NCBI GenBank assembly: GCA_009995595.1
Contig: JAACPE010000004.1
Coordinates: 1-64,000 of the forward strand
Length of the DNA stretch: 64,000 nucleotides
DNA from: Alphaproteobacteria bacterium
GTDB taxonomy: Bacteria > Pseudomonadota > Alphaproteobacteria > Micavibrionales > Micavibrionaceae
Reading direction: 5' to 3'
Below, piece by piece: positions 7,876 to 61,304 of the stretch. How positions within the stretch are numbered: position 1 is the stretch's first letter; each line of letters opens with the position of its first letter. Position numbers and translations under genes: made by a program. A model generated the notes under the pieces. It saw only the letters and a program-made list of their open reading frames with translations. It had not been told where the DNA came from and ran no database searches.

Positions 7876-10800
7876 TTATTTACCTGTTTGCTTCATATCG
7901 ACGTTCAAACCAAGGGCCTTCAATTCTTTTACGAGAACGTTGAAGGATTCTGGCACGCCGATCTCAAAGTTATCTTCACCGCGAACGATGCTTTCATATA
8001 CTTTTGAACGACCAGCAACGTCATCAGATTTAATGGTGAGCATTTCCTGCAAGGTATATGCCGCGCCATAAGCCTGAAGCGCCCAACATTCCATCTCGCC
8101 AAAGCGCTGACCACCAAATTGGGCTTTACCGCCAAGTGGTTGTTGCGTAACCAGTGAGTATGGTCCGATAGAACGGGCATGTATCTTGTCATCAACCAAG
8201 TGATGGAGTTTCAACATATAAATCATGCCGACAGTTACAGGACGGTGGAATTTCTCCCCAGTACGACCATCAATCAATGTCACCTGACCCGATACTGGAA
8301 GCCCTGCTTTTTCAAGAAGAGCATCAATATCTGCCTCAACTGCGCCATCAAAGACAGGCGTCGCCATAGGGACCCCGCCGCGAAGATTTTGCGCCATTTC
8401 GACAATTTGATTATTGTCCATGCCATCAACTTTTTTCTTAAACTCTGATTCACCATAGGCGTCTTCAAGTTTAATTTTAAGGGTCTTTATCTCATCGTTG
8501 CTAGGATTTTTCTGATCATTAAAACTGTCAATAATCGCACCAATTTGTTTACCCAAACCAGCAGAAGCCCAGCCCAAATGTGTTTCCAAAATCTGACCCA
8601 CGTTCATACGGGATGGAACCCCAAGAGGGTTTAGCACGATGTCAACAGGCGTACCATCTTCGGTATAAGGCATGTCTTCTTCAGGCATAATGCGAGAAAC
8701 AACCCCTTTGTTACCGTGACGACCCGCCATTTTATCACCAGGCTGCATCTTACGCTTAATCGCTACGAAGACTTTAACCATCTTCATCACGCCTGGCATA
8801 AGTTCATCACCACGCTGAAGTTTTTCAACCTTATTTTCAAAACGTTCTTTAATGTCATCAATGGCATCATCGAAAGTTTTAGACATGGCTTCAATTTCTT
8901 CCATAATCTTATCATCTTCAATGGCAATTTCACGCCATAGACCATGTTTGATCTCTTTAAGGTGAGTTTGAGTAATACTATCACCTTTTTTAAGACCCCC
9001 ATCTTTGAACGCTTTGGCAACAGTTTGGCCAACAAGCAATTCTTCAAGACGACCATAGAAACCAAGCTCAATGATCTTACGCTCAGCGTCACGATCTTTT
9101 GCCAATGCTTCAATCTCTTCTTGTTCAATCGCCATTGCACGAGAATCTTTATCAACGCCGCGGCGGTTAAACACACGAACATCAACAATAGTACCCACAG
9201 CACCTGATGGAAGACGAAGCGATGTATCTTTAACATCAGCCGCTTTTTCACCAAAAATAGCACGAAGAAGTTTTTCTTCTGGTGTCATCGGGCTTTCGCC
9301 TTTTGGTGTCACTTTACCTACAAGAATATCCCCTGGCCCCACTTCGGCGCCAATATGGACAATACCTGCCTCATCCAGATGCTTAAGCGCTTCTTCCCCA
9401 ACATTTGGAATATCGCGTGTTATTTCCTCTGTACCAAGCTTGGTATCACGAGCCATCACTTCATATTCTTCAATATGAATAGAGGTGTAAACATCATCAC
9501 GCACGATGCGCTCAGATAGAAGAATCGAATCCTCAAAGTTGTAACCATTCCATGGCATAAACGCGACCAAAACGTTACGGCCAAGCGCAAGCTCACCAAA
9601 TTGAGTTGATGGGCCATCAGCAATAATATCGCCGCCCTTAATCTCATCTCCAACTTTAACAAGTGGTTTTTGCAAGATACAGGTCGATTGATTTGAACGT
9701 TGGAATTTCTTCATGTTGTAAATATCTACAACAGCTTCAGAGGCATCCAGTTTCTCAGTCGCACGGATAACAATACGTGTTGCATCAACCTGCACCACAT
9801 TACCACCACGACGCGCCGTCACAGCCGCGCCAGAATCACGCGCAACAATGGCTTCCATCCCTGTACCAACAAGCGGTGCATCCGATTTAAGAAGGGGCAC
9901 TGCCTGACGCATCATGTTTGACCCCATAAGCGCACGGTTCGCATCATCGTTTTCTAGGAACGGGATAAGCGCTGCAGCAACAGAAACCATCTGTTTTGGC
10001 GAGACGTCCATAAAATCAATTTGATCGGCTGGTGACATCAAGTTGTCCCCTGCATGACGACAAGAAACGAGGTCGTTTTCAAAACCGCCTTTATCTGTCA
10101 ATTTTGCATTGGCCTGAGCAATTGTATATTTTGCTTCCTCCATAGCTGACATGTAAACGACTTCGTCTGTCACTTTACCATCAACAACGCGGCGATATGG
10201 CCCTTCGATAAAGCCATATTTATTAACGCGCGCGAATGTCGCGAGAGAGTTAATCAAACCGATGTTTGGGCCCTCTGGCGTTTCAATCGGACAAATACGA
10301 CCATAATGCGTTGGGTGAACATCGCGGACTTCAAATCCCGCGCGCTCACGCGTGAGACCACCTGGCCCTAGGGCAGAAAGACGACGTTTGTGCGTGATTT
10401 CTGACAATGGGTTTGTTTGGTCCATAAACTGTGAAAGCTGAGATGATCCAAAAAACTCACGAACAGCCGCTTGAGCAGGCTTAGAGTTAATCAAATCATG
10501 CGGCATGTAAGTATCAATCTCAACAGATGACATACGCTCCCGAATGGCGCGTTCCATACGAAGAAGACCCACACGGAATTGGTTTTCCATGAGCTCGCCC
10601 ACTGAACGAACGCGTCGGTTACCAAGGTTGTCAATATCGTCAACCTCTCCATTACCGTCTTTAAGACCATGCACATAACGCAAAATGGCAAGAAGATCGG
10701 TTTTGCTCAAAATCCTGAAATCATCTGGCGCGTTTAAATCAAGACGCGCATTCATTTTCACACGACCAACAGCAGAAAGATCATAACGCTCCGGATCAAA

Positions 10801-17663: not shown

Positions 17664-20600
17664 ATGGGCAGTTTTTTTATTAACTTTAACGCATCTTCGG
17701 TCTACAGCGCCGATGCACCTATTTTAGAGATTTTATTAGGAGGCGTTGTTGTCTCATCTTTAACAATAAACTCGGGGTTTGTGTCATCCTTACTGCGTTT
17801 TGATTTTGAAGGTGATTTTCCCTCATCATTGTCTTTGCGTTTTCAAGATGCCTCCTCTGAAGCAGGTAGATCAGTCACAATTAATTCAGTTTCAATTAAC
17901 GGAAGAAATGTTGATGGCGTCCATCTGAGTTCCCTTACATTAAACAACGGCGACACATCTAACTTGGACACCTCTGCAACGTCACATCTTTTTGGAATTA
18001 TCGACCCTACATTAAGTGATTTTGATGCGGTGACCGTTCAAGGCACAAGCGCTTCAGAAGTTGTGAAGGGCACAGCCAATAATGATGTGATTGATGCAGG
18101 TGCAGAAGATGATATTGCCAAAGGCGGCGATGGTGATGACCAGATCGCTGGCGGGGCAGGAAATGATATTTTACGCGGCGGTAATGGTAACGACGTTATT
18201 ATTGGCGAAGATGGTAACGACCTTATTAAGGGTGAAGCGGGTAACGATTATCTTGTCGGCGGCGCTGGTCTTGATAACTTACAGGGTGATGCAGGGAATG
18301 ACGTTTTAAGTGGTGGTCTGGGCAATGACACGCTCCTTGGCGGGGATGATGATGACATTCTTTTTGGCGGTGCGGGCAACGATATTTTACGCGGCGAAAA
18401 TGGAAATGACTTCTTATATGGCGGCGGTGACAATGATCGTCTCGAAGGCGGCGATGGTGATGACATTTTACATGGCGAAGAGGGTAATGATGCACTTGAA
18501 GGCGGCCTTGGTAATGACACCCTTTATGGCGGCGTAGGTAATGATCGTTTAAAAGGGGAAGATGGTGATGATATCCTCAATGGCGGCGATGGCCTTGATA
18601 AAATAGAAGGTGGCCTTGGCAGTGACACGATTAATGGCGATGCTGGCAATGACAGCCTCTATGGCGGTGATGGAAATGACACAATTTATGGCGGTGCTGG
18701 TAGTGATCGTATTTTTGGTCAAAATGATGATGACACAATTTATGGCGGTGCTGGGCTAGATCGTGTTCAAGGGGACGCAGGAAACGATACGCTTTATGGC
18801 GGCGACGATAACGACACAGTGTGGGGCGGCGACGGTAATGATATAGCACATGGCGATGCTGGTAACGACCGCGTTCGCGGCGATGCCGGCGATGACATCG
18901 TTTACGGCGATGCTGGCAATGACTTTGTTATGGGCGATGAAGGCAATGATACCGTCTATGGCGGCGACGGAAATGATAACGCACAAGGCAATGATGGCGA
19001 TGATATTGTTTATGGTGATGCTGGTTTTGATAAGGTTTATGGCGGCGCTGGTAACGATACAGTTTACGGCGGCGCGGATAATGATCGCGTCTATGGTGGC
19101 ACAGGCTCAGATATAGTCTACGGCGATGCGGGCAATGATCTTCTTTATGCGTCTGCTGAACAAACAATTGAGACAGTCACATTTTTTACCCGCGACAGCG
19201 TCTTTAGCGAAGATTTTAACGGCGGCGCAAATGGGTTTGTATATAGCGACGGTGGTTTTGGTGGCACAGACCCCAGCGCCGACAATCACGCCTATGGCCA
19301 ATACTTCACAGGCTTTAATACTGGAGGCTCCGTTTATGTTTATACAGACGGTGTTAATAATAGAGCGGAAACCAATATTTCTGGCAAGTGGACAAATACA
19401 TTCACCCTCGCACAAGATGAAACAAATCTAAGTGTTAATTTCGATTACCGCGCCTATCACGCCCCAACACATTCTGCCGGCGAAGATATGAGAATGTACG
19501 TTGAGATAAACGGCGTTCGTTATGGCTTAGATGGCAATGATTTTGTTGCAGAGTTCCGGGCAGGAACACCAACAAGCAATAGCTTTATTAACGTTAATAT
19601 AGATATTGGTGATTTAACAGCTGGAACGCATACTATTGCATTCGGGATTTTAAAAACGGCAAGTAATAGCGCAGGTGATGATTCTTACATTGTGTTTGAT
19701 AATTTAGATATCGGCCGTAACATCGAAAATACAATTACCTCTGTTGCCGTTATGGACGAAGGCGAAACAAACATACTTTATGGCGGTGATGGTTTTGATC
19801 AACTCTTTGGTAGTTCAGGAACAGACATGCTTTATGGCGGCGCGGATAATGATGTATTGCGCTCAGGGACAACGGGCGATGTTCAATCACAAATTGACGC
19901 CATATTGGCGGCAAACTCAGATGTCGTCTATAACGCCTCAACCAATAGTTTTTATCAATTTATTTCAGGTGCTTTTACTTACACCCAATCTAATACAGCG
20001 GCTCAAAGTGCAACGCTAACCGGACTCGATGGTATTGCAGGCTCCCTAGCAGCTATAACATCACAGGCAGAAAATGACTTTATACTCACCCTCACCGGAA
20101 CAAATTATGCATGGGTGAACGGTAATGATGCTGGCACGGAAGGAACATGGGTTTTTGAAGGCGGCAGTGATAACGGGACACAATATTGGACCGGCGGCAC
20201 AAATGGTTCCGCAACAGGCGGCGCCTTTTCAAATTGGTATAGTGGTGCGCCAATTGATAGCGATCCAAACTATGATTATTCTATTTTCCTAGGAACAAGT
20301 TACAATGGAGAAATTTTTTCTTACATTGGAACATACGCAACAAATTATGTGATTGAATGGAGCGCATCATCATTAAGCAGTTCAACTGGTTTAAACACAC
20401 TCAATGGTGGTGATGGATTTGATAGCCTTTATGGCGCATCAGGGCATGATATATTCCAATTTGATAATCTAAATGGCGTTGACCGCGTTTATAATTTTAA
20501 CACAGCAGCCGGCGATCAGATTGATGTTGCCAATCTTATATCATACGATTCAGTAAACGATGATATTGCAGACTTTATTCGCTTCACAGAAGCCAATGGT

Positions 20601-20729
20601 GATACATTAATGGCAGTTGATATTGACGGTGCGGCAAATGGCGTCAATTTTGTTAATGTCGCTTCATTTGAAGATACTGTTGGCCTTGATCTCAACACTC
20701 TTTTTGCAAACGGAGATATTATCGTTTAA
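17664..20729 (+). CDS. Secreted RTX adhesin-like protein with lectin domain
   Basis: This 1021-residue protein has no signal peptide and looks like a type I secretion substrate. Residues 1-110 form a beta-rich domain resembling the calcium-dependent xylan-binding CBM60 fold. About 38 contiguous nonapeptides of the GGxGxDxx type span roughly 153-495 and would form a calcium parallel beta-roll. A beta-sandwich-like domain follows (about 505-690), then two more RTX units. A C-type-lectin-like domain at about 746-902 carries [25 protein letters not shown] and YVIEWS. The last 110 residues are a type I secretion target domain. The start has GAGAAGGATTT just upstream. No dedicated exporter is nearby. 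Ligands are unknown; adhesion is inferred. Confidence 0.88.
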
Positions 20730-20868
20730 CCCGCTACTCCTAAAGATCAACATCCTATTTAAAAGAACCCAAGCCTCGGATTTATTAATTTGGGATTAAT
20801 TTATCTAAAATCCATTGTAATATTATGTAAATTTAAACTCTTATTTGTTTAAATAGTACATAGGGAAT

Positions 20869-20889
20869 CTCGGCATGTTAAGAACCGAG
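20869..20889 (+). promoter_or_regulatory. Hairpin and mini-ORF just before the VWA/RTX gene
   Basis: CTCGG (20869-20873) pairs with CCGAG (20885-20889), four bases before the chosen start at 20894. The best ribosome site (AGGGA) faces a different ATG at 20875, which opens a ten-codon frame ending at 20907, overlapping the start of the large gene. This could be a coupled leader peptide or chance. Confidence 0.3.
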
Positions 20890-20893
20890 CATA

Positions 20894-22621
20894 ATGGAAA
20901 TGGGTAGAAAAATGCAGGGTATATTAGCCAGTAAAACAATATTAACAGATTTATCTCAAACAGGCGCTCTCAGAATCGATTACGATGATAGTAGCGGCAT
21001 CAAAACGATTTTAAGTGATGATTATTATGACACTCTAGATATTCGCTTGGACTTGGAGGAATCATACGATCTGAAAGACTCTGGTAACCTGAATTTATCA
21101 AATAATCGTGCATTTAATCAACCGACTCTTATTATTGAGCAACCAATTGAAGAGAGAGATTTTATTATTATTGATCCACCTGGACTCATTGTCGGGAACA
21201 ATATTGATGATGTCTTAGGATCTACTCAAAGCTGGGCAGTGGGGAATAACCGTGGCGCAATTTCTGGCGGCAATAGCATTGATCGTCTTGTTGGTGATTT
21301 TGGTGGCGCAACCATGGAAAACCAAACACAAAATTATAATGTTGTTTTTATTCTTGATGTCAGCGGGTCAATGCAAGAGTTATCCATCACAGGAGAGAGC
21401 CGACTTGATCTTATGGTGCGTTCAGTGAATGAATTACTTGAGAGCTTTTCAACATTTTCAGGCGGCGCAATACAAGTTCATATTTCCGCTTTTAGCACTA
21501 ACAGCAGCGTAAATGGCAGCTTTAACGTAACAGATGCCGATGGCTATAGTGATGCTATCGCGCTTATGAACACCCTATCACATGGAGGATATACAAATTA
21601 TGAAGCAGGATTGCAAAGCGCTATTAACTGGTTACAAAGTGATAAGCCTATCCAAAATGCTACGACAACGACATATTTTTTAAGCGATGGTTTCCCCAAC
21701 TTTGCCCTTGATAATAACGGCAACGCCGTCAATACAAACCGTACATCACTATCGGCCATGAACCATATTCTTGGGGCAGACGGCTCAAATGAAGTCGCTC
21801 TGATACAAAGCCTGAGCGATGAAGTCATTGGTGTTGGTATTAGTATTGGTAGTAGTATTTCAAATATTGAAGTAATTGATTCAGATGGTAATGCCCTCAA
21901 TGTTCCAGCGGATCAACTCTCTGCTGTTATGCAGGAAACAAACCCGATTACAAAACTTGCCTCTGTAGGGGACGACACAATTAACGGGAATGACAGCGGC
22001 GATATTATTTTTGGTGATGCGCTGAACACAGATATCCTTGCACAAATTCACGGCCTTAATACCCAATCAGGAGATGGTTGGGCAGTCTTTGCACAACTAG
22101 AAGCAGGACAAAGCGCCATCCAAAGCCTTTGGAATCGCGGCAACACCATGACTTATATTAGTAATAATGCGCTTGAACTGGCGCAAGAAGTCGTAACGGC
22201 CCAAGGATTAAAACGCATAGGTGGAAATGACACACTGAACGGTGGAAATGGCAATGACTTGATTTTTGGCCAAGAGGGTAATGACCGCATCACAGGGGGA
22301 AATGGTTTTGATACTCTCTATGGCGGTTCTGGCGCTGACATATTTATTTATAAAGCTTTATCTGATGGCGGCGACATTATTAAAGATTTCTCGGTTCATG
22401 AAGGTGATAAATTAGATTTTTCAGCCCTGATTGAAAATTACGATCCAGCGCAAGATGATATTAATGACTTTATTCATCTATCTCAGAACAATGGTAATAC
22501 AATTGTTTCAATAAATGTCAGTGGAAACCCATCACAAACTGGTATCAGTATCTTAACACTAGAAGGTGTAACAAATATAACCGTTGATGACCTGATGGCG
22601 AACGAATCCATCATCACATGA
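20894..22621 (+). CDS. Secreted VWA-domain RTX protein
   Basis: This 575-residue protein joins a von Willebrand A domain (about residues 147-350) to RTX repeats and a type I secretion C-terminus. The MIDAS metal site is complete: DVSGS, the Thr in GGYTNYEAG and the Asp of FLSDGFPN. RTX nonapeptides lie at about 443-480, followed by a target domain with DFSVHEGDKLDFSALI. The layout recalls the C-terminal part of LapA-like giant adhesins, but the repeat region is short. The start is the first of three close Met codons and is uncertain by a few residues. It follows the lectin RTX gene by 164 bases and converges on an outer-membrane gene with a four-base gap. Confidence 0.87.
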   Translation: MEMGRKMQGILASKTILTDLSQTGALRIDYDDSSGIKTILSDDYYDTLDIRLDLEESYDLKDSGNLNLSNNRAFNQPTLIIEQPIEERDFIIIDPPGLIVGNNIDDVLGSTQSWAVGNNRGAISGGNSIDRLVGDFGGATMENQTQNYNVVFILDVSGSMQELSITGESRLDLMVRSVNELLESFSTFSGGAIQVHISAFSTNSSVNGSFNVTDADGYSDAIALMNTLSHGGYTNYEAGLQSAINWLQSDKPIQNATTTTYFLSDGFPNFALDNNGNAVNTNRTSLSAMNHILGADGSNEVALIQSLSDEVIGVGISIGSSISNIEVIDSDGNALNVPADQLSAVMQETNPITKLASVGDDTINGNDSGDIIFGDALNTDILAQIHGLNTQSGDGWAVFAQLEAGQSAIQSLWNRGNTMTYISNNALELAQEVVTAQGLKRIGGNDTLNGGNGNDLIFGQEGNDRITGGNGFDTLYGGSGADIFIYKALSDGGDIIKDFSVHEGDKLDFSALIENYDPAQDDINDFIHLSQNNGNTIVSINVSGNPSQTGISILTLEGVTNITVDDLMANESIIT

Positions 22622-50442: not shown

Positions 50443-51459
50443 TTGGAATATAGCCTAGATACAGCCAACACAGATACTGATAATATTAATCTAGGAAGCG
50501 GCGATGATATATTAAATGCGACAGTTGATTTTGAACTATATAATAACTCTATAATTCAACTTGGGAGTGGGAATGATAATATTAACGCTTTGAATATAGG
50601 TTTAAATGATAATGCTGTTCTCAATACCGGTTCAGGAAACGACACTTTTAATGTTACAGGAATATGGATATATGGGAATAGTAATGTAGATACCGGTTCA
50701 GGAAACGACATTATTAACGGCTACATTGATATTTGGGATGACGCAAGCTTGTCGATGGGCTCTGGAAACGATACAATTTTTGGAAATTTATGGGTTGGCA
50801 GTGCAACAAATGTTTATATGGGTGATGGTGATGACCTCATACGTATAACAGGCACAACAGAAACTTTTGGTTTGTATAATGGAAGTAATATCTATTTTGG
50901 AGATGGTAACGATACTTTAGATAGTGGAAACTCTGTTCCGTATTTACAAGGAGACATCTTCTTTGGTAGCGGTGATGATGTATTCTTAGGAAATTACTTA
51001 TATTTTTCCCCCGCCTATTCAGTTTACATGGGCGATGGTGATGACATCGTCAATACAGGAACACAGGGCGCTTATAACTTTGATAACGCAGATTTCTTCT
51101 TAGGAAGCGGTAACGATACATTCTACATCAGAGGAACTGGAGAAATTGAACAAGTATGGGGAGAAGCTGATGCTGACACCTATATCTTCTCTTTTGTTGG
51201 TGGCACTACAACAATAAACGATTTCTCAATGGCAGATGGCGATGTAATCGATATCAGTCAGATTTTGACTGGCTACGACCCGATGTCAGACCTTATTAGC
51301 GACTTCGTCCGTTTTGTTGATGTTGGAGCAGATGCTTACTTACAAGTAGATTCAAACGGCGGTGCAGATGGATTTACAACATTGGTAACACTTATTGGCG
51401 GTGCAGGATTAGATGCATCTACACTCGAAATATCAGGTAATTTAGATACTGTTGTATAA
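50443..51459 (+). CDS. RTX-like type I secreted protein, main part (frameshifted)
   Basis: The 338-residue frame is the longer piece of the interrupted gene. The coding frame actually extends upstream to 50242. It holds about ten GSGNDxI/GDGDDxI motifs spaced every 20-25 residues instead of nine, so the calcium loops are separated by longer beta strands. The C-terminus (DFSMADGDVIDISQILTGYD, then SDFVRF and the final LDTVV) matches the target domain of the two RTX proteins at 17664 and 20894. There is no good start near 50443, so the intact product must begin at 49970. Function unknown; surface or matrix protein inferred. Confidence 0.75.
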   Translation: MEYSLDTANTDTDNINLGSGDDILNATVDFELYNNSIIQLGSGNDNINALNIGLNDNAVLNTGSGNDTFNVTGIWIYGNSNVDTGSGNDIINGYIDIWDDASLSMGSGNDTIFGNLWVGSATNVYMGDGDDLIRITGTTETFGLYNGSNIYFGDGNDTLDSGNSVPYLQGDIFFGSGDDVFLGNYLYFSPAYSVYMGDGDDIVNTGTQGAYNFDNADFFLGSGNDTFYIRGTGEIEQVWGEADADTYIFSFVGGTTTINDFSMADGDVIDISQILTGYDPMSDLISDFVRFVDVGADAYLQVDSNGGADGFTTLVTLIGGAGLDASTLEISGNLDTVV

Positions 51460-54422: not shown

Positions 54423-54875
54423 CTAAGCTGTGTCTCCGCGGGGAAACTTTTCTTTAGGGAAGGCAATAATATTTGTCGGTAAGCTTTCTATATCTTTTCG
54501 ACAAACAAGACCTACAAAATGCTGCGTATCAAAATCAATGACAGGTAGCCAGTCTACTTTATGAATCTTCATCATAATCAAGGCTTGCTCAATGGGGTCA
54601 TCTAGATAAACAGACATATTAGGCGCCCTCATAACATCAGCAATGCAGGGGTATTGTCTACTCGATAGTTTACTATCTATATAATCAATCAAATCTTCAC
54701 TTGTAATGAACCCAATACAATGATTTTGTTCATCGACAATTCCTGCTGCTTGAACATTCATAAAGTTCATATAAAAAACGACTAAAGCTAAGGATGAATT
54801 ACCTTTTGTTGATAATGGCGATTGTATATTACATGCGTCATTAACGTATTGAATTGGTGTTATACCTTTAAACAT
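54423..54875 (-). CDS. Two-CBS-domain protein
   Basis: This 150-residue protein has paired CBS motifs: GFITSEDLIDYIDSK near residue 55, and YLDDPIEQALIMMKIHKVDWLPVIDF near 90 followed by FVGLVCRKDI. CBS pairs bind adenosyl ligands and act as energy or redox sensors. The N-terminus is divergent. It is part of the leftward stress-related cluster. Target unknown. Confidence 0.8.
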   Translation of the reverse strand: MFKGITPIQYVNDACNIQSPLSTKGNSSLALVVFYMNFMNVQAAGIVDEQNHCIGFITSEDLIDYIDSKLSSRQYPCIADVMRAPNMSVYLDDPIEQALIMMKIHKVDWLPVIDFDTQHFVGLVCRKDIESLPTNIIAFPKEKFPRGDTA

Positions 54876-55093: not shown

Positions 55094-55229
55094 AATATTT
55101 TCCTTTTTGTGTAAGAGTTTCTGTATAAATAGAGCCTATGACTCTTAATGTTAGGAAGCTATGTGCAAGGAGTTAACATTTATAAATTTTGTGTAAAGAT
55201 GTAACTTTATTTTTTTATAAAAATCGCAA

Positions 55230-55281: not shown

Positions 55282-55539
55282 TTATTTACCTAGATCAATT
55301 TGATCTTTATCCGTCAATGCACCAGCAGCGGCTCCGACAACGCCACCTAAAACAGCGCCCCCTGCGACACTTCCTCCTGTAACTGCACCACCTACAGCGC
55401 CTACACCAGCACCAATTCCAGCTCCACTCAGGGCTCTATCTCCTTTTGTATTGCCACAGGCTGTAAGAGTTATCGCAATGCAAAATATTGATAAAAAGAA
55501 CAGTGGGTATTTGGTTTTTGTTATTATAAGTTTTTTCAT
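55282..55539 (-). CDS. Glycine-zipper lipoprotein
   Basis: This 85-residue protein has a lipoprotein signal ending LTAC (cleavage before Cys near residue 28). A Gly/Ala zipper follows (GAGIGAGVGAVGGAVTGGSV onwards), which packs as a membrane-associated helix pair, and a charged end. Similar proteins sit in the outer membrane and are stress-induced. It is monocistronic with its own terminator. Confidence 0.85.
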   Translation of the reverse strand: MKKLIITKTKYPLFFLSIFCIAITLTACGNTKGDRALSGAGIGAGVGAVGGAVTGGSVAGGAVLGGVVGAAAGALTDKDQIDLGK

Positions 55540-55654
55540 TATCGTCTCCTTTGTTATTTGAAGTGAATGATGTTATTTCAGTAATTAGAAATCGATATGT
55601 AAACACTATGGATATATAATATTTGTATAAGGACACTTAATGTCATTTTAATAT

Positions 55655-55708: not shown

Positions 55709-55936
55709 CTATGCTGCTTTTGCAGTTCCACAACAGCAGTCTTTTTCAATATCTTTCAATTTCTTTTCTGCATCTTCTTTTGAAACATTATGTTTTTCTT
55801 TCAATTTTGCAAAAAATTCATCTTTCTTTCCTTCATAGAGTTTGATGTTATCATCACTCATTTTAGGCCATTTTTCTTGAATTTTTTTATACATTTTTTC
55901 AATATTACGTTTTGCATTTTTATCTTTGTTATCCAT
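55709..55936 (-). CDS. CsbD-like small stress protein
   Basis: This 75-residue, highly charged helical protein has KKIQEKWPKMSDDNIKLYEG, matching the WxxLTDDDL-type core of CsbD-family general-stress proteins. It has an unusual CCCG near the C-terminus that could bind metal or be oxidised. It has its own terminator. Function of the family is unknown. Confidence 0.75.
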   Translation of the reverse strand: MDNKDKNAKRNIEKMYKKIQEKWPKMSDDNIKLYEGKKDEFFAKLKEKHNVSKEDAEKKLKDIEKDCCCGTAKAA

Positions 55937-56059
55937 GATAATCTCCTTGATATATTAATTGATTTAAACCTGTAAACATCAGATCCATAGATATTTTCGC
56001 AAATATTGTATAACAATACGATGTAGAAAAAATGGGAGAGTATAAATTTTACGTAAGGA

Positions 56060-56888: not shown

Positions 56889-57383
56889 TTATTTGATAAT
56901 ACTTCTTAGCATCCATATAGATTTTTGATGTGCTGTTATGCGCCGAACCATAAGGTCTATAGTTTCATCATCTTTTGAATTTTGACCTTCCTTCTTGGCA
57001 GACTGGCAGCTTTCAATAACGCTATCATTCATCTCAATCAAATTATGAACCATCCGCATAGCCCTGGCATTTGCATCGGCTTCTTTATTCATAGCATTAG
57101 ACGTTTTTTGCAGAGTATCCAAGATTTCTTTACCTTCAAAAGGCAGTGCGTAGAAATCAAGCGCACGGATACGCTCTGCGATTACATCAATAGCCTGAAA
57201 TAGCTCATTATACTGCTCACTAAAAAGCTTATGCATACTAACAAAGTGCAAGCCCTCTACGTTCCAGTGATAATTATGGGTCGCGAGATACAGCCCGTAA
57301 GTATTGGCTAAAACCTTTTGTAAATTTTTGCTAATAGGGCTTTCAGTTGCTTTTGGCTGATGTAACGTTGCTGGTTCATGCAT
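56889..57383 (-). CDS. dps: Dps-family ferritin-like DNA-protection protein
   Basis: This 164-residue protein forms dodecamers that oxidise Fe(II) with peroxide and protect DNA. The ferroxidase residues are present in HNYHWNVEGLHF and, across the dimer, in FQAIDVIAERIRAL. Its end touches the bPH2 gene (two-base spacing). The context of envelope and stress genes fits stationary-phase or oxidative response. Confidence 0.93.
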   Translation of the reverse strand: MHEPATLHQPKATESPISKNLQKVLANTYGLYLATHNYHWNVEGLHFVSMHKLFSEQYNELFQAIDVIAERIRALDFYALPFEGKEILDTLQKTSNAMNKEADANARAMRMVHNLIEMNDSVIESCQSAKKEGQNSKDDETIDLMVRRITAHQKSIWMLRSIIK

Positions 57384-57429: not shown

Positions 57430-57864
57430 TTATAAAAATCTTTTTCCAGTCAAATAACCAGAAATAGAAGCGATTAATATAGCTATTTTTGGATTATCTA
57501 TTACAGGAGCTTCAAGCTCTTGCTGAAAAATTTCAAAAGCATCTTTAGCAGTATTAATGAAAGTTTCTTTTTCAGCCTGTAGCTTTTTACGTCTGTACAA
57601 CGCAATATTATAAATAAGAATTCCACTCGTTATTGAAAGAAAGGAAAATATCCCACCCATTGAAACAATGACAGTAACAATATCATAGCTATTACTTAAC
57701 CATACATAACCACCATACACAAAAAATCCGATTCCTAAAAAAGCCATTAGGATGGAGAAAGTTACCAGGACAGTCTTAGCTTTACTTTCTCCAGTCATAG
57801 AAAATTTATTATTGGCAATGCTTTGACTAAGCATTTGTTCGGCAAATTTTAAAGTTCTATTCAT
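57430..57864 (-). CDS. Hypothetical membrane protein, 144 residues
   Basis: It has two clear membrane segments (about 28-55 and 63-90), then a charged helical part (RRKKLQAEKETFINTAKDAF) and a third weak hydrophobic stretch near residue 128. It is two bases from the DUF883-like gene, so probably coupled with it. It resembles small holin-like or DUF883-partner proteins only loosely. No function is assigned. Confidence 0.72.
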   Translation of the reverse strand: MNRTLKFAEQMLSQSIANNKFSMTGESKAKTVLVTFSILMAFLGIGFFVYGGYVWLSNSYDIVTVIVSMGGIFSFLSITSGILIYNIALYRRKKLQAEKETFINTAKDAFEIFQQELEAPVIDNPKIAILIASISGYLTGKRFL

Positions 57865-57866
57865 TC

Positions 57867-58157
57867 TTATCTGCGCTTCAAAAGCGCGTCAAATACTAAT
57901 CCAGCAATGAAAGCAACAGCTATTGATTGTAATGGTTTTGCCTTTATTTTAGATTCCATATTTTTTAACTGTTCTTTACCTTGTGTAGTTAACGCTTTAA
58001 ACCTTTTAGAAGCTGCCTCTGTAATATCTTCAGTTTTATGAGAACCTGCTTCTTTAACATGCCTTGCTAATTCAATAGTATTAGATTTTAAAGAATTAAT
58101 ATCTTCTTTAATATCGTCAACATCAGAGTGTTTTGCTTCAATAATATTTTTAGTCAT
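57867..58157 (-). CDS. DUF883/ElaB-YqjD-like membrane-anchored protein
   Basis: This 96-residue protein has an amphipathic helical body (about 5-75) with many Lys/Glu and a C-terminal hydrophobic anchor ending LLKRR. This is the layout of ElaB/YqjD proteins, which bind ribosomes at the membrane in stationary phase in Escherichia coli. The ribosome role here is only by analogy. Confidence 0.72.
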   Translation of the reverse strand: MTKNIIEAKHSDVDDIKEDINSLKSNTIELARHVKEAGSHKTEDITEAASKRFKALTTQGKEQLKNMESKIKAKPLQSIAVAFIAGLVFDALLKRR

Positions 58158-58170
58158 GGTTTTCTCTTTT

Positions 58171-58992
58171 CTATTTGGTTAAAGTTTTTTTGTATGTTTC
58201 AAACTGAGCTGATTTATCTTTACTCATTTGAAAATCAAGTTTCTCATCATCATGGATTATGGTGACGTCATGGAATGAAAAAACAGCTTTCTCACCACCA
58301 AACCCAAGCATTTTGTCGAAGCCAACTATGATTTGGCTAGCCATACCATTTTTGAATAAGATATTTTCAATATCCGCCATAGATTCTTTATTCTGATCAA
58401 GCAAGCGTCCTTGTAAAAGCTTACTAACGCTAAGACCATTACTTGGAATCACAAGCACTCTGTTACTATAGTCCTTATTTTCATATGAAAACTCAGCAGC
58501 ATTATCGATAGAGCTCTTAGTCAAAGGAGCAGCAATATCACCATTGGAATTGATCTTCATGATGCGCTCATAATCAAATGCTGCGAGCTTACCCATGTCG
58601 AAAAAATTACCATCAGCTACAATTACCCAAATACCTTTACCATCACGATCAATAATAATATCCTTGATTGTCCCAACACTTTCGTTTTCTTTACTTGTAC
58701 TGTTATGAACTGGCTGACCAATAATGTTATTTGCTGTATACTTTGAATCAATTTCAAGCGTAGTGTTTTTATCATTATTTTCTTTGCCGATTAATGTGGC
58801 TTTTATTTTATCGTAAGCTTTAGATGTATCTTTTTTTATATCTTTTACAGCGGTTTTAGCATCTTCAACAATATTGCCTGTTTCACTTATTTCGGGCTTC
58901 GTCTGCGTTTGTGATTTAGCCGTTTCCGCAAAAGCTGGTACCGCATTCATAATTGCAAGAATTGATACCGTTATTAAAAATTTATTTTTCAT
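58171..58992 (-). CDS. Periplasmic PRC-barrel domain protein
   Basis: This protein of about 273 residues has a signal peptide (MKNKFLITVSILAIMNAVPA, cut near AFA-ETA). A Lys/Thr-rich linker is followed by a PRC-barrel (IIGQPVHNSTSKENESVGTI, then IIIDRDGKGIWVIVADG) near residues 95-150 and a second repeat-like half. The frame opens at 59109, but ATG 58992 with AAGGAA upstream gives the signal peptide at the N-terminus. PRC barrels often act in envelope or photosynthetic assembly; the role here is unknown. Confidence 0.82.
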   Translation of the reverse strand: MKNKFLITVSILAIMNAVPAFAETAKSQTQTKPEISETGNIVEDAKTAVKDIKKDTSKAYDKIKATLIGKENNDKNTTLEIDSKYTANNIIGQPVHNSTSKENESVGTIKDIIIDRDGKGIWVIVADGNFFDMGKLAAFDYERIMKINSNGDIAAPLTKSSIDNAAEFSYENKDYSNRVLVIPSNGLSVSKLLQGRLLDQNKESMADIENILFKNGMASQIIVGFDKMLGFGGEKAVFSFHDVTIIHDDEKLDFQMSKDKSAQFETYKKTLTK

Positions 58993-59023
58993 AGTGATAA
59001 TTCCTTTTTTTGTTGTTAAAAAT

Positions 59024-59161
59024 TTAATCTGCAGCGTTTTCAATAGATTGGCCAGCATGGCCAATATCGCGACCAGCCCCTTCCATGGTTTCACAGGCAG
59101 ATAATCCAAGACTAAATACAGATAAAGACAAAGCTAGGATAAATCGGGTTTTAGTAAACAT
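59024..59161 (-). CDS. Entericidin-like small lipoprotein, 45 residues
   Basis: ATG at 59161 encodes a lipoprotein signal (MFTKTRFILALSLSVFSLGL, lipobox LSAC) followed by ETMEGAGRDIGHAGQSIENA. This is the entericidin A/B pattern GxGxDIxxAGxxIxxAA. AAAGGAAA stands nine bases upstream. Entericidins are stationary-phase envelope lipoproteins proposed to act in cell lysis. It is below usual ORF cut-offs. Confidence 0.85.
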   Translation of the reverse strand: MFTKTRFILALSLSVFSLGLSACETMEGAGRDIGHAGQSIENAAD

Positions 59162-59183: not shown

Positions 59184-59360
59184 TTAAATTGCTGGAGGTT
59201 TTCCCTGTATCGCCTGCATAACTGCTGAAATTAAGAACAGTACAACAAAGACAACGAATAATATTCTTGCAATATCTACTGCTCCAGCAGCAATACCAGT
59301 AAAGCCAAAAACGCCTGCAATGATAGCTACTAATAAAAAAGTTAAAGTCCATCTAAGCAT
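59184..59360 (-). CDS. DUF1328 (YtjA-like) small membrane protein, 58 residues
   Basis: ATG at 59360 encodes [20 protein letters not shown], then [14 protein letters not shown] and a second span, ending GKPPAI. This is the DUF1328/YtjA pattern of two short membrane helices. It overlaps the CBS gene's stop by eight bases, so it is translationally coupled. Induced by envelope stress in known relatives; function unknown. Confidence 0.85.
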
Positions 59361-59820
59361 GAGCTGCCTCCTGATTTCCTAATTGTATAACCTCCCCTGG
59401 TGCAGCGCATATATGCCCTAGAGCCTGCCCACAAACCAGATGATGATGATCTGTAGAATGTGCAGCCATATCACCAAGTGAAATAATACCAACGAGACGT
59501 TTATCTTCGTCTAAAACAGGTAAGCGTCTGACTTTATTTTTAGTCATATTTAATGCAACGTCTTCCATCTCATCACTTTCACGACAATATAAAATCTCTT
59601 TTGTCATGACCTGCTCAGCTTTCGTATTTTCTGGATGATGAGATTCTGCAACACAGCGAAGAGCCAGATCCCGATCTGTAATAACACCGATTAATCGATC
59701 ATTTTCTGCAACGAGTACACTACCGCAATCGCTTATTTGCATTTTCTTGGCAACCTCATTCAGCAGAGTTTCAGGTGAAACAACTTCTACTTTTTTGCTC
59801 ATAATATCTTTAATTTTCAT
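59353..59820 (-). CDS. CBS-domain pair protein
   Basis: This 155-residue protein is composed of two CBS motifs: [17 protein letters not shown] near residue 45, and [21 protein letters not shown] near 105. It begins [20 protein letters not shown], the common start of stand-alone CBS-pair proteins such as Hrp1-like stress proteins. The C-terminal 30 residues have extra His/Cys. It is coupled to the DUF1328 gene. Confidence 0.88.
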
Positions 59821-59850: not shown

Positions 59851-60453
59851 TTAGCGGCGAAAATCAATGACAACGCGACGGTTTTCTTGATTTTTAACAC
59901 CATCTTCTGTTGGTACGGCCTGCTCATATTCACCACGCGCTTCGCGATCTAGAACTTGATTTTTAATGCCACGCATCATGAGAGCTTTAGATACAGCTTC
60001 TTCACGGCGATAAGATAATTTTTGGTTGTAATCTACATTACCATGACTATCCGTATAGCCAGTCACGGTCACTTGTTTAGGTTGAAATTTATTAATTTCT
60101 TTTGCAATCTGATTCAGTGTGGCTTTTTCATTGTTACGCAAATTTGATTGATCAAAATCAAATAGAACTGTGTAAGAACGAACTATCTCACCTGAATATA
60201 TAGTTTCTACATTCGTTGTGTCTCCACATATGCCAACATAATTACGAGGCAAGCGACGATAATGAGAGCATTGCTCTCTTTCCTCATATTCATTATATGA
60301 TTTTTTATCCATATAATTTTCCAGTCGGTTTTCATGCGTATAATTATTTTCCGATATTTCAGGGCGCGGAACATAACGCGGCCCAGAATCTGCGCCAGCA
60401 CAAGCACTTAAAGTTAAAACGGCCGAGCACATTATTAATGTTTTGCTTTTCAT
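59851..60453 (-). CDS. OmpA-family outer-membrane lipoprotein
   Basis: This protein of about 200 residues has a lipobox LSAC near residue 18 and an OmpA-type peptidoglycan-binding domain (VLFDFDQSNLRN, then VTGYTDSHGNVDYNQKLSYR) near residues 105-165. The frame opens at 60492; ATG 60453 with AAGGATT before it starts the lipoprotein signal. It ties the outer membrane to the wall. Confidence 0.9.
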   Translation of the reverse strand: MKSKTLIMCSAVLTLSACAGADSGPRYVPRPEISENNYTHENRLENYMDKKSYNEYEEREQCSHYRRLPRNYVGICGDTTNVETIYSGEIVRSYTVLFDFDQSNLRNNEKATLNQIAKEINKFQPKQVTVTGYTDSHGNVDYNQKLSYRREEAVSKALMMRGIKNQVLDREARGEYEQAVPTEDGVKNQENRRVVIDFRR

Positions 60454-60566
60454 GATAAAATCCTTTTGCGTCAATAAAGAGAAACCGAACATGACAGGAG
60501 ACGTATCAGGAAGCGATAGGGAAGAACTTCTAGGATATAAGGATTGTGTAAAGTAAGAAATGAAGG

Positions 60567-61304
60567 CTATGCCGAAAGTTTTAGTAAACCTTGTTCATGC
60601 AAAGGAACAATTTCTGCAACCTCCATGCGGTAACCAATACCTGCTTCGGTTATAATACGCACAGGAATAGAAGGATTTTTTTCAATTTTTTCTCGGATTT
60701 GGCCAACAAAAACCCTCAAATACTGCGTATCGTCAACATGCGCCTCCCCCCAAACTGCTTTAAGAATTTCACGGTGGGATAGCATTTTTCCGCGATGGGT
60801 CATAAAATAGCGCAGGAGATTATATTCTTTAGGCGTAAAAGGAATAAGTTCATCTGCTAAAAATACTTCATGACGCACAAGATCGATTCGAAGAAGGCCA
60901 TTAATCAGTTCAGGCTCACCCGTCTCATGAATTGCTGCAGATCTTAAAGCGGCATTGATACGTGCATTCAAGACATCTCTATTAAACGGTTTGAAAACAT
61001 AATCGTTTGCGCCAGCATTCAAGCTAGAAATAACAGACTCATTATCAGTGTGTGCAGAAAGGACAATAATTGGTAATTCTGACCATTGCCTAATGGCTTC
61101 AATGACTTCAATGCCATGCATATCAGGCAAATCCAGTGACAAAAGAATTAAATCAGGTTTGAGAGATATGCAAAGCTGTATAGCTTGCTTGCCCGAACCA
61201 CAATCCAATAATTTAAATTCTGTTTCATCAAGAATGATATCAAGCATTTTTTTATGTACTTGGTCTGGATCGGCAATCAATAGTAAATTTTTCTTTTTCT
61301 TCAT
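60567..61304 (-). CDS. Orphan KdpE-like response regulator lacking phospho-acceptor Asp
   Basis: This 245-residue OmpR/PhoB-family protein has a receiver (about 6-120) and a winged helix (about 130-232). The DNA-binding part, with AVWGEAHVDDTQYLRVFVGQ and ITEAGIGYRM, is KdpE-like. In the receiver the phospho-acceptor motif reads LILLSLDLPDMHG, with Ser where KdpE has Asp. The N-terminal acidic pair is Ala-Asp (IADPD). The switch Ser (VLSAH) and Lys (FKPFN) remain. No histidine kinase is adjacent. It lies upstream of the leftward stress cluster and may control it independently of phosphorylation, which is inference. Confidence 0.9.
   Translation of the reverse strand: MKKKKNLLLIADPDQVHKKMLDIILDETEFKLLDCGSGKQAIQLCISLKPDLILLSLDLPDMHGIEVIEAIRQWSELPIIVLSAHTDNESVISSLNAGANDYVFKPFNRDVLNARINAALRSAAIHETGEPELINGLLRIDLVRHEVFLADELIPFTPKEYNLLRYFMTHRGKMLSHREILKAVWGEAHVDDTQYLRVFVGQIREKIEKNPSIPVRIITEAGIGYRMEVAEIVPLHEQGLLKLSA

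Follow-up and report, generated by a model that had tools for sequence, protein, structure and literature searches.

How a response regulator works once the aspartate that should receive the phosphate has been replaced, and which genes it then controls, is the question raised by a locus in the 64,000-nucleotide stretch of alphaproteobacterial DNA analyzed here (the window). The gene concerned (P0001; 60567..61304, minus strand) is an uninterrupted ORF of 245 aa encoding an OmpR/PhoB-family pseudo-receiver response regulator, an assignment that rests on Pfam and on a Ka/Ks comparison with its orthologue in genome G008. Both domains that define the family score above the Pfam cut-offs, namely the receiver (PF00072, Response_reg, 86.5 bits) and the winged helix (PF00486, Trans_reg_C, 77.5 bits). 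The receiver domain (residues 1-121; 60942..61304, minus strand) has a degenerate pocket consisting of Asp12, Pro13, Ser56, Ser83 and Lys105, with Tyr102 retained. In the winged-helix DNA-binding domain (60621..60908, minus strand), Arg197, Arg204 and Thr219 align with R193, R200 and T215, the residues by which KdpE contacts DNA (PMC3264566), and these positions are invariant across the aligned orthologues, in agreement with an earlier reading of the sequence alone that described this domain as intact. Altogether, the regulator is probably an orphan, aspartate-less member of the OmpR/PhoB family that would act independently of phosphorylation and control an adjacent osmotic/envelope-stress cluster through repeats with an 11-bp period.

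The state of the pocket was established by alignment and structure modeling. The segment LILLSLDLPD aligns without gaps to LIILDLGLPD of KdpE, which places Ser56 (codon TCA; 61137..61139, minus strand) at KdpE Asp52, and the orthologue alignment agrees. In the AlphaFold model (mean pLDDT 84.9), beta-3 comprises residues 52-56 with residue 56 at the strand end, and the receiver superposes on the KdpE receiver structures 1zh2/1zh4 at ~1.0 A, so the serine proposed earlier for the phospho-acceptor position is borne out by both sequence and model. The same reading had taken an alanine for the lost N-terminal acidic residue, which is off by one: the multi-species alignment rules out Ala11, which aligns with the hydrophobic residue preceding the acidic pair, and that pair is Asp12-Pro13, in which the second acid (DD2, metal-binding) is now Pro13 (codon 61266..61268, minus strand). 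The switch residues Ser83, Lys105 and Tyr102 are retained. The positions of KdpE Asp97 and Arg111 carry residues conserved in the regulator family, and those of Lys87 and Glu107 are hydrophobic in every member, complete-pocket ones included; we take these four KdpE residues to belong to the alpha4-beta5-alpha5 dimer interface. DD2 is a direct metal ligand (PMC12632262), and with Pro13 at DD2 and Ser56 at the acceptor the protein falls within published definitions of pseudo-receivers and aspartate-less receivers (ALR) (PMC4395418; PMC12632262). Aspartate-less receivers make up ~4% of receivers, and DD2 is non-acidic in ~80% of pseudo-receivers (PMC12632262). Among replacements of the acceptor, Glu is the commonest (26%) and Ser the third, and 609 aspartate-less proteins of the OmpR type are known, 2% of that architecture (PMC4395418).

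Orthologues were found in 20 of the 142 genomes of the order, with a patchy distribution that includes two of the 10 genomes of the window's genus, and two early-branching relatives, SW_2 (L030) and REEB114 (L032), came from a public collection. In a tree built without the pocket columns and without the G038 copy, which is cut by a contig end, L030 and L032, both with complete pockets, fall outside a clade of 18 degenerate members. Within this clade DD2 is acidic in none of the 18, through a single change, and the acceptor is still Asp in most members and was lost at least four times: in the window (Ser) with its genus-mate G008 (Ala), in G069 (Ala), in G073 (Glu) and in G064 (Glu). The acceptor codons are TCA in the window, GCT in G008 and GAY in the Asp-bearing members. 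Decay of the same pocket residues across 18 orthologues exceeds what chance would give. Because Asp persists at the acceptor of most members, weak phosphorylation may still occur there. Members of genus g3 fall at separate places in the tree, a pattern suggestive of transfer of the regulator between lineages; a plasmid search returned only regulators below 60% identity. Two copies have peculiarities of their own: G073 encodes two tandem regulators, each with Glu at the acceptor (L098:8629-9378 and 9757-10488), and the G011 copy (L101:513-1178) seems frame-shifted across the first acidic residues, through either assembly error or decay.

Decay of the pocket is accompanied by loss of the linked kinase. 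Neither the ORFs nor profile searches gave a kinase gene in the 54-64 kb region of the window, the window genome has no match to PF02702 (KdpD), and its 16 HATPase matches all lie outside the 54-64 kb region. The earlier statement that no kinase is adjacent thus holds for this region and for KdpD, with the qualification that 16 HATPase matches occur elsewhere in the genome. A HATPase profile built from these 16 matches was run over the flanks fetched for the orthologues, some of them short at contig ends, and found no kinase near the regulator except in G069; a second match, in G064, adjoins a different regulator. The G069 kinase (301 aa, L096:8018-8923) is a histidine kinase retained in the cluster of a regulator with Ala at the acceptor. 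L030 and L032 each carry a hybrid histidine kinase no more than about 2 kb from the regulator (~75% mutual identity), and the best matches to these kinases in the window genome are only ~34% identical. This hybrid kinase was presumably the former partner of the regulator.

Purifying selection on the receiver is strong. When the window regulator, with Ser at the acceptor, is compared with that of G008, with Ala, Ka/Ks comes to 0.116 for the receiver and 0.097 for the DNA-binding domain, and since the former is so low the receiver must still be needed. The suggestion, made from sequence alone, that the protein acts without phosphorylation gains support here, because the acceptor, the DD2 ligand and the linked kinase have all been lost from a protein whose receiver remains under purifying selection; action without Asp phosphorylation would fit this combination.

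The neighboring genes all lie on the minus strand and resemble a stress cluster. Directly after the regulator comes an OmpA-domain lipoprotein (59851..60492; PF00691), for which the signal peptide points to ATG 60456 (MKSKTLIMCSAVLTLSAC) as the probable true start. It is followed by a CBS-domain protein identified by Pfam (59353..59820), which is kept beside the regulator in several relatives, and by a PRC-barrel protein with a signal peptide (58171..59109; PF05239). Next are a DUF883/YqjD-like protein (57867..58157) and a YqjE-like membrane protein (57430..57864), both named from sequence appearance and lacking a Pfam match, then a Dps/ferritin-like protein (56889..57383; PF00210), a small CsbD-like protein (55709..55936; named from sequence appearance), a small glycine-zipper lipoprotein-like protein (55282..55539) and a second CBS-domain protein (54423..54875; PF00571). 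The order regulator, OmpA-like lipoprotein, CBS, PRC-barrel recurs in several genomes, with CsbD-like and Dps-like proteins as other recurrent neighbors. The lipoprotein has eight close orthologues, each of them immediately following the regulator (hypergeometric p 4e-8), and a ninth, 40% identical, is found in a genome without the regulator. A recurrent neighbor of 465 aa, considered as a hidden sensor or kinase, proved to be an NhaA-type Na+/H+ antiporter; it occurs in the cluster of five relatives (L087, L091, L092, L095 and L102), hinting at cation or osmotic stress. Seven regulator loci also contain a second receiver-like protein (L085:8064-8558, L086:4282-4845, L087:6853-7449, L088:8690-9310, L092:11931-12494, L095:10442-11017 and L096:9184-9756); some keep the acceptor Asp (VIILDLG), others have Lys there (VVILKPE), and the protein was not seen in the window cluster.

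OmpR/PhoB regulators bind direct repeats, and the intergenic DNA of the loci shares an element of this kind. It reads CYTTAYA, then 11 bp further CCTTATA, then after a blank turn C.YATCG and 11 bp further CCTKAT, and CA..T occupies the position expected of a -10 box; comparison of the sites with themselves at increasing lag peaks at 11 and 32 bp. Four predicted sites, all on the minus strand, lie in the window cluster. Site 1 (CTTTACACAATCCTTATA...CCCTATCGCTTCCTGA; 60506..60553, 54.9 bits at 60521(-)) lies between the regulator and the lipoprotein gene, 65 bp before the probable start at 60456, a distance of 62-69 bp in several relatives. Site 2 (56011..56058, 17.5 bits at 56026(-)) is ~90 bp upstream of the CsbD-like gene, and homologues of this gene in several relatives have a predicted site ~80-93 bp upstream. 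Site 3 (55585..55632), upstream of the glycine-zipper gene, has the complete pattern and a weak weight-matrix score (4.9 bits at 55600(-)), and site 4 (55151..55198, 16.9 bits at 55166(-)), upstream of the second CBS gene, contains exact KdpE half-sites, TTTACA-N5-TTTATA (55181-55197). Site 1 has the related TTTACA-N5-CTTATA at 60536-60552. The half-sites described for KdpE are TTTATA and TTTACA, 5 bp apart (TTTATA-N5-TTTACA; PMC3264566); taken alone, this short pattern is not significant within the window.

The weight matrix was built without the window sites, and the maxima of mononucleotide-shuffled windows did not exceed 4.0 bits. Three of the cluster sites rank first to third in the window and the fourth ranks fifth, one site outside the cluster scoring above 55600(-). 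A relaxed pattern, scanned at up to two mismatches, matches the 2-Mb genome four times, in each case exactly, on the one strand and inside the stress cluster, a result that is not independent, as the pattern was fitted to these four sites. The genus has nine further genomes. G008, the sole regulator carrier among them, gave three matches; of the eight that lack the regulator, one gave a single match, with two mismatches, and the reversed control pattern yielded three single matches in the genus. Across the order, a stricter pattern (up to one mismatch) occurs in 15 of the 20 regulator-bearing genomes and in 8 of the other 122 (Fisher p 8e-11), and its reverse in 2 of 142. Because the site model was derived from regulator-bearing loci, enrichment near the regulator is partly circular, and the independent evidence is the weight-matrix test together with sites unlinked to the regulator, the latter being the least circular. 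Unlinked sites stand before homologues of window-cluster genes in three genomes: G088 and G087 have a perfect one before a PRC-barrel gene followed by a CsbD-like gene, and G047 has one ahead of a DUF883-like, a YqjE-like, a ferritin-like and a PRC-barrel-like gene, the names being taken from sequence appearance. Whichever residue occupies the acceptor position, relatives have similar sites before these gene families. The G087 site (C14:8092-8128, L131) lies in a genome without a regulator orthologue, as a remnant of regulator loss or a site shared with another factor, and it counts against exclusivity of the regulator for the site. Spacing is shifted by 1 bp in the sites of two loci, and some orthologue loci have weak sites only. 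Two further matches were set aside, an exact one in G036 that has pilus-type genes alongside and looks like chance, and one in G008 (C36) whose neighboring ORFs are transposase-like or uninformative. Control of the adjacent cluster, which had been raised as a possibility from the sequence, would fit these data, since the only four genomic copies of a KdpE-box-like repeat fall within the cluster, on the same strand.

From these data we infer the following course. The ancestor would have been a normal regulator with a linked hybrid histidine kinase. That kinase and the acid that binds the metal were probably lost first, and the acceptor Asp later, several times, including to Ala and Ser in the window's genus. 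The receiver is retained, as a folded and probably dimerizing module, and the winged helix would bind the 11-bp-period direct-repeat arrays in the promoters of the stress cluster. Because the predicted site lies just upstream of the -10 region, the regulator would most likely be an activator. Its activity may be set by its own amount, by a partner or by a small signal.

Whether the receiver has exchanged phosphate for another input is a separate matter, for which evidence points to Cys35 as the best candidate, one that rests on a single evolutionary event. It is possible, if rather improbable, that the receiver is a thiol or redox switch working through this residue (codon 61200..61202, minus strand). 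All 18 degenerate members have Cys35, both complete-pocket relatives have Ser there, and no other receiver residue shows this difference. The Dps-like protein in the cluster is consistent with such a role, as are the precedents RitR (PMC5965902) and HP1021 (PMC12632262), which use other cysteines. However, Cys35 and DD2 loss arose on one and the same branch, so their link counts as one event; Cys35 could be structural; and its position is unlike that in RitR (linker) or HP1021 (DD+19). In the fullest form of this idea, again rather improbable, Asp phosphorylation would have given way to a single-cysteine switch, thiol- or metal-based, beside the former pocket once Cys35 was fixed on the DD2-loss branch, freeing the acceptor Asp to vanish repeatedly with DNA site and target stress genes kept.

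It is quite unlikely that Asp58 (D+2) or Asp14 took over as acceptor, with Asp phosphorylation continuing from a kinase encoded elsewhere. Asp58 lies two residues past Ser56, the retained Ser83, Lys105 and Tyr102 would suit such a role and the 16 HATPase matches offer possible kinases, but the gapless alignment and the model put Ser56 at the acceptor, the DD2 metal ligand is Pro, and the residue at D+2 varies among relatives (D, N, S or G), frequently with the acceptor Asp intact, so that Asp58 is neither conserved nor compensatory and was rejected as acceptor. Phosphorylation of Ser56 itself by a Ser/Thr kinase, in place of the Asp switch, likewise has very little probability: Ser is the third commonest replacement, for which phosphorylation has been proposed (PMC4395418), but the nearest orthologue has Ala and the other independent losses gave Ala or Glu, which argues that Ser is not the selected feature. 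A decaying pseudogene or an assembly or sequencing error, to which the degraded pocket and the apparently frame-shifted G011 start might point, is ruled out by Ka/Ks of ~0.1 across both domains and has next to no probability given an ORF intact in nearly every member, TCA and GAY codons that differ by more than one base, and exact predicted sites retained before neighboring genes.

An orphan regulator independent of Asp phosphorylation thus remains the preferred reading, and it is of a kind already known. KdpE of E. coli (PDB 4kny, 4kfc, 1zh2) is the best match in sequence and fold, and its half-site spacing of 11 bp is similar to that of the upstream repeats in the predicted site. Unlike KdpE, the regulator lacks the acceptor Asp, the DD2 acid and a genomic KdpD, and its predicted targets are stress genes. 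The label KdpE-like given earlier therefore suits the fold and the DNA-contact residues and does not extend to orthology; the NCBIfam KdpE model NF007820 gives 174.6 bits against a cut-off of 325 and KdpD is absent. The top NCBIfam score for the whole regulator, 185.7, is to MtrA (NF040689), also below the cut-off (300). MtrA has a normal pocket and a kinase partner, MtrB. Like ChxR, HP1043 and RitR, the regulator is an orphan of the OmpR/PhoB family with a receiver short of pocket residues and an intact DNA-binding domain; unlike them, it has relatives in which the pocket ranges from complete through partly lost to fully lost and which have predicted sites in common. RitR of Streptococcus pneumoniae is similar in being aspartate-less, in deriving from a two-component regulator and in possible control by cysteine. 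Its cysteine switch, however, is Cys128 in the linker between receiver and DNA-binding domain (PMC5965902), whereas the only two cysteines here, Cys35 and Cys45, are in the receiver, with the conserved Cys35 at the end of beta-2.

The switching of bacterial pseudo-receivers was termed a mystery in a 2025 review (PMC12632262), and no papers on this regulator were found among the open-licence literature. What is new is the series of orthologues, together with the site and the regulon predicted here. Close relatives form a natural series, from a complete pocket with a nearby kinase, through DD2 loss with Asp kept, to Asp replaced by Ser, Ala or Glu, and since the predicted DNA site and the set of target genes are shared, its members can be compared directly. 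Such a series could show when phosphate control goes, whether Asp matters after DD2 loss and what replaces Asp.

Elsewhere in the window, Rfam gave one tRNA only, and RTX-like GGxGxD repeats occur in large, secreted-looking proteins at 17664-22621 and 50443-51459. Two of the 20 other receivers checked in the window genome also lack the acceptor Asp. Degenerate receivers there include the second receiver of a tandem-receiver protein of 481 aa (G000:C1:72608-72946, L123), in which Ser occupies the acceptor position and Arg replaces Lys, one that has Glu as acceptor residue and has lost most of the pocket (G000:C4:72282-72626, L127), and one without DD2 and T (G000:C6:278671-278985, L126).
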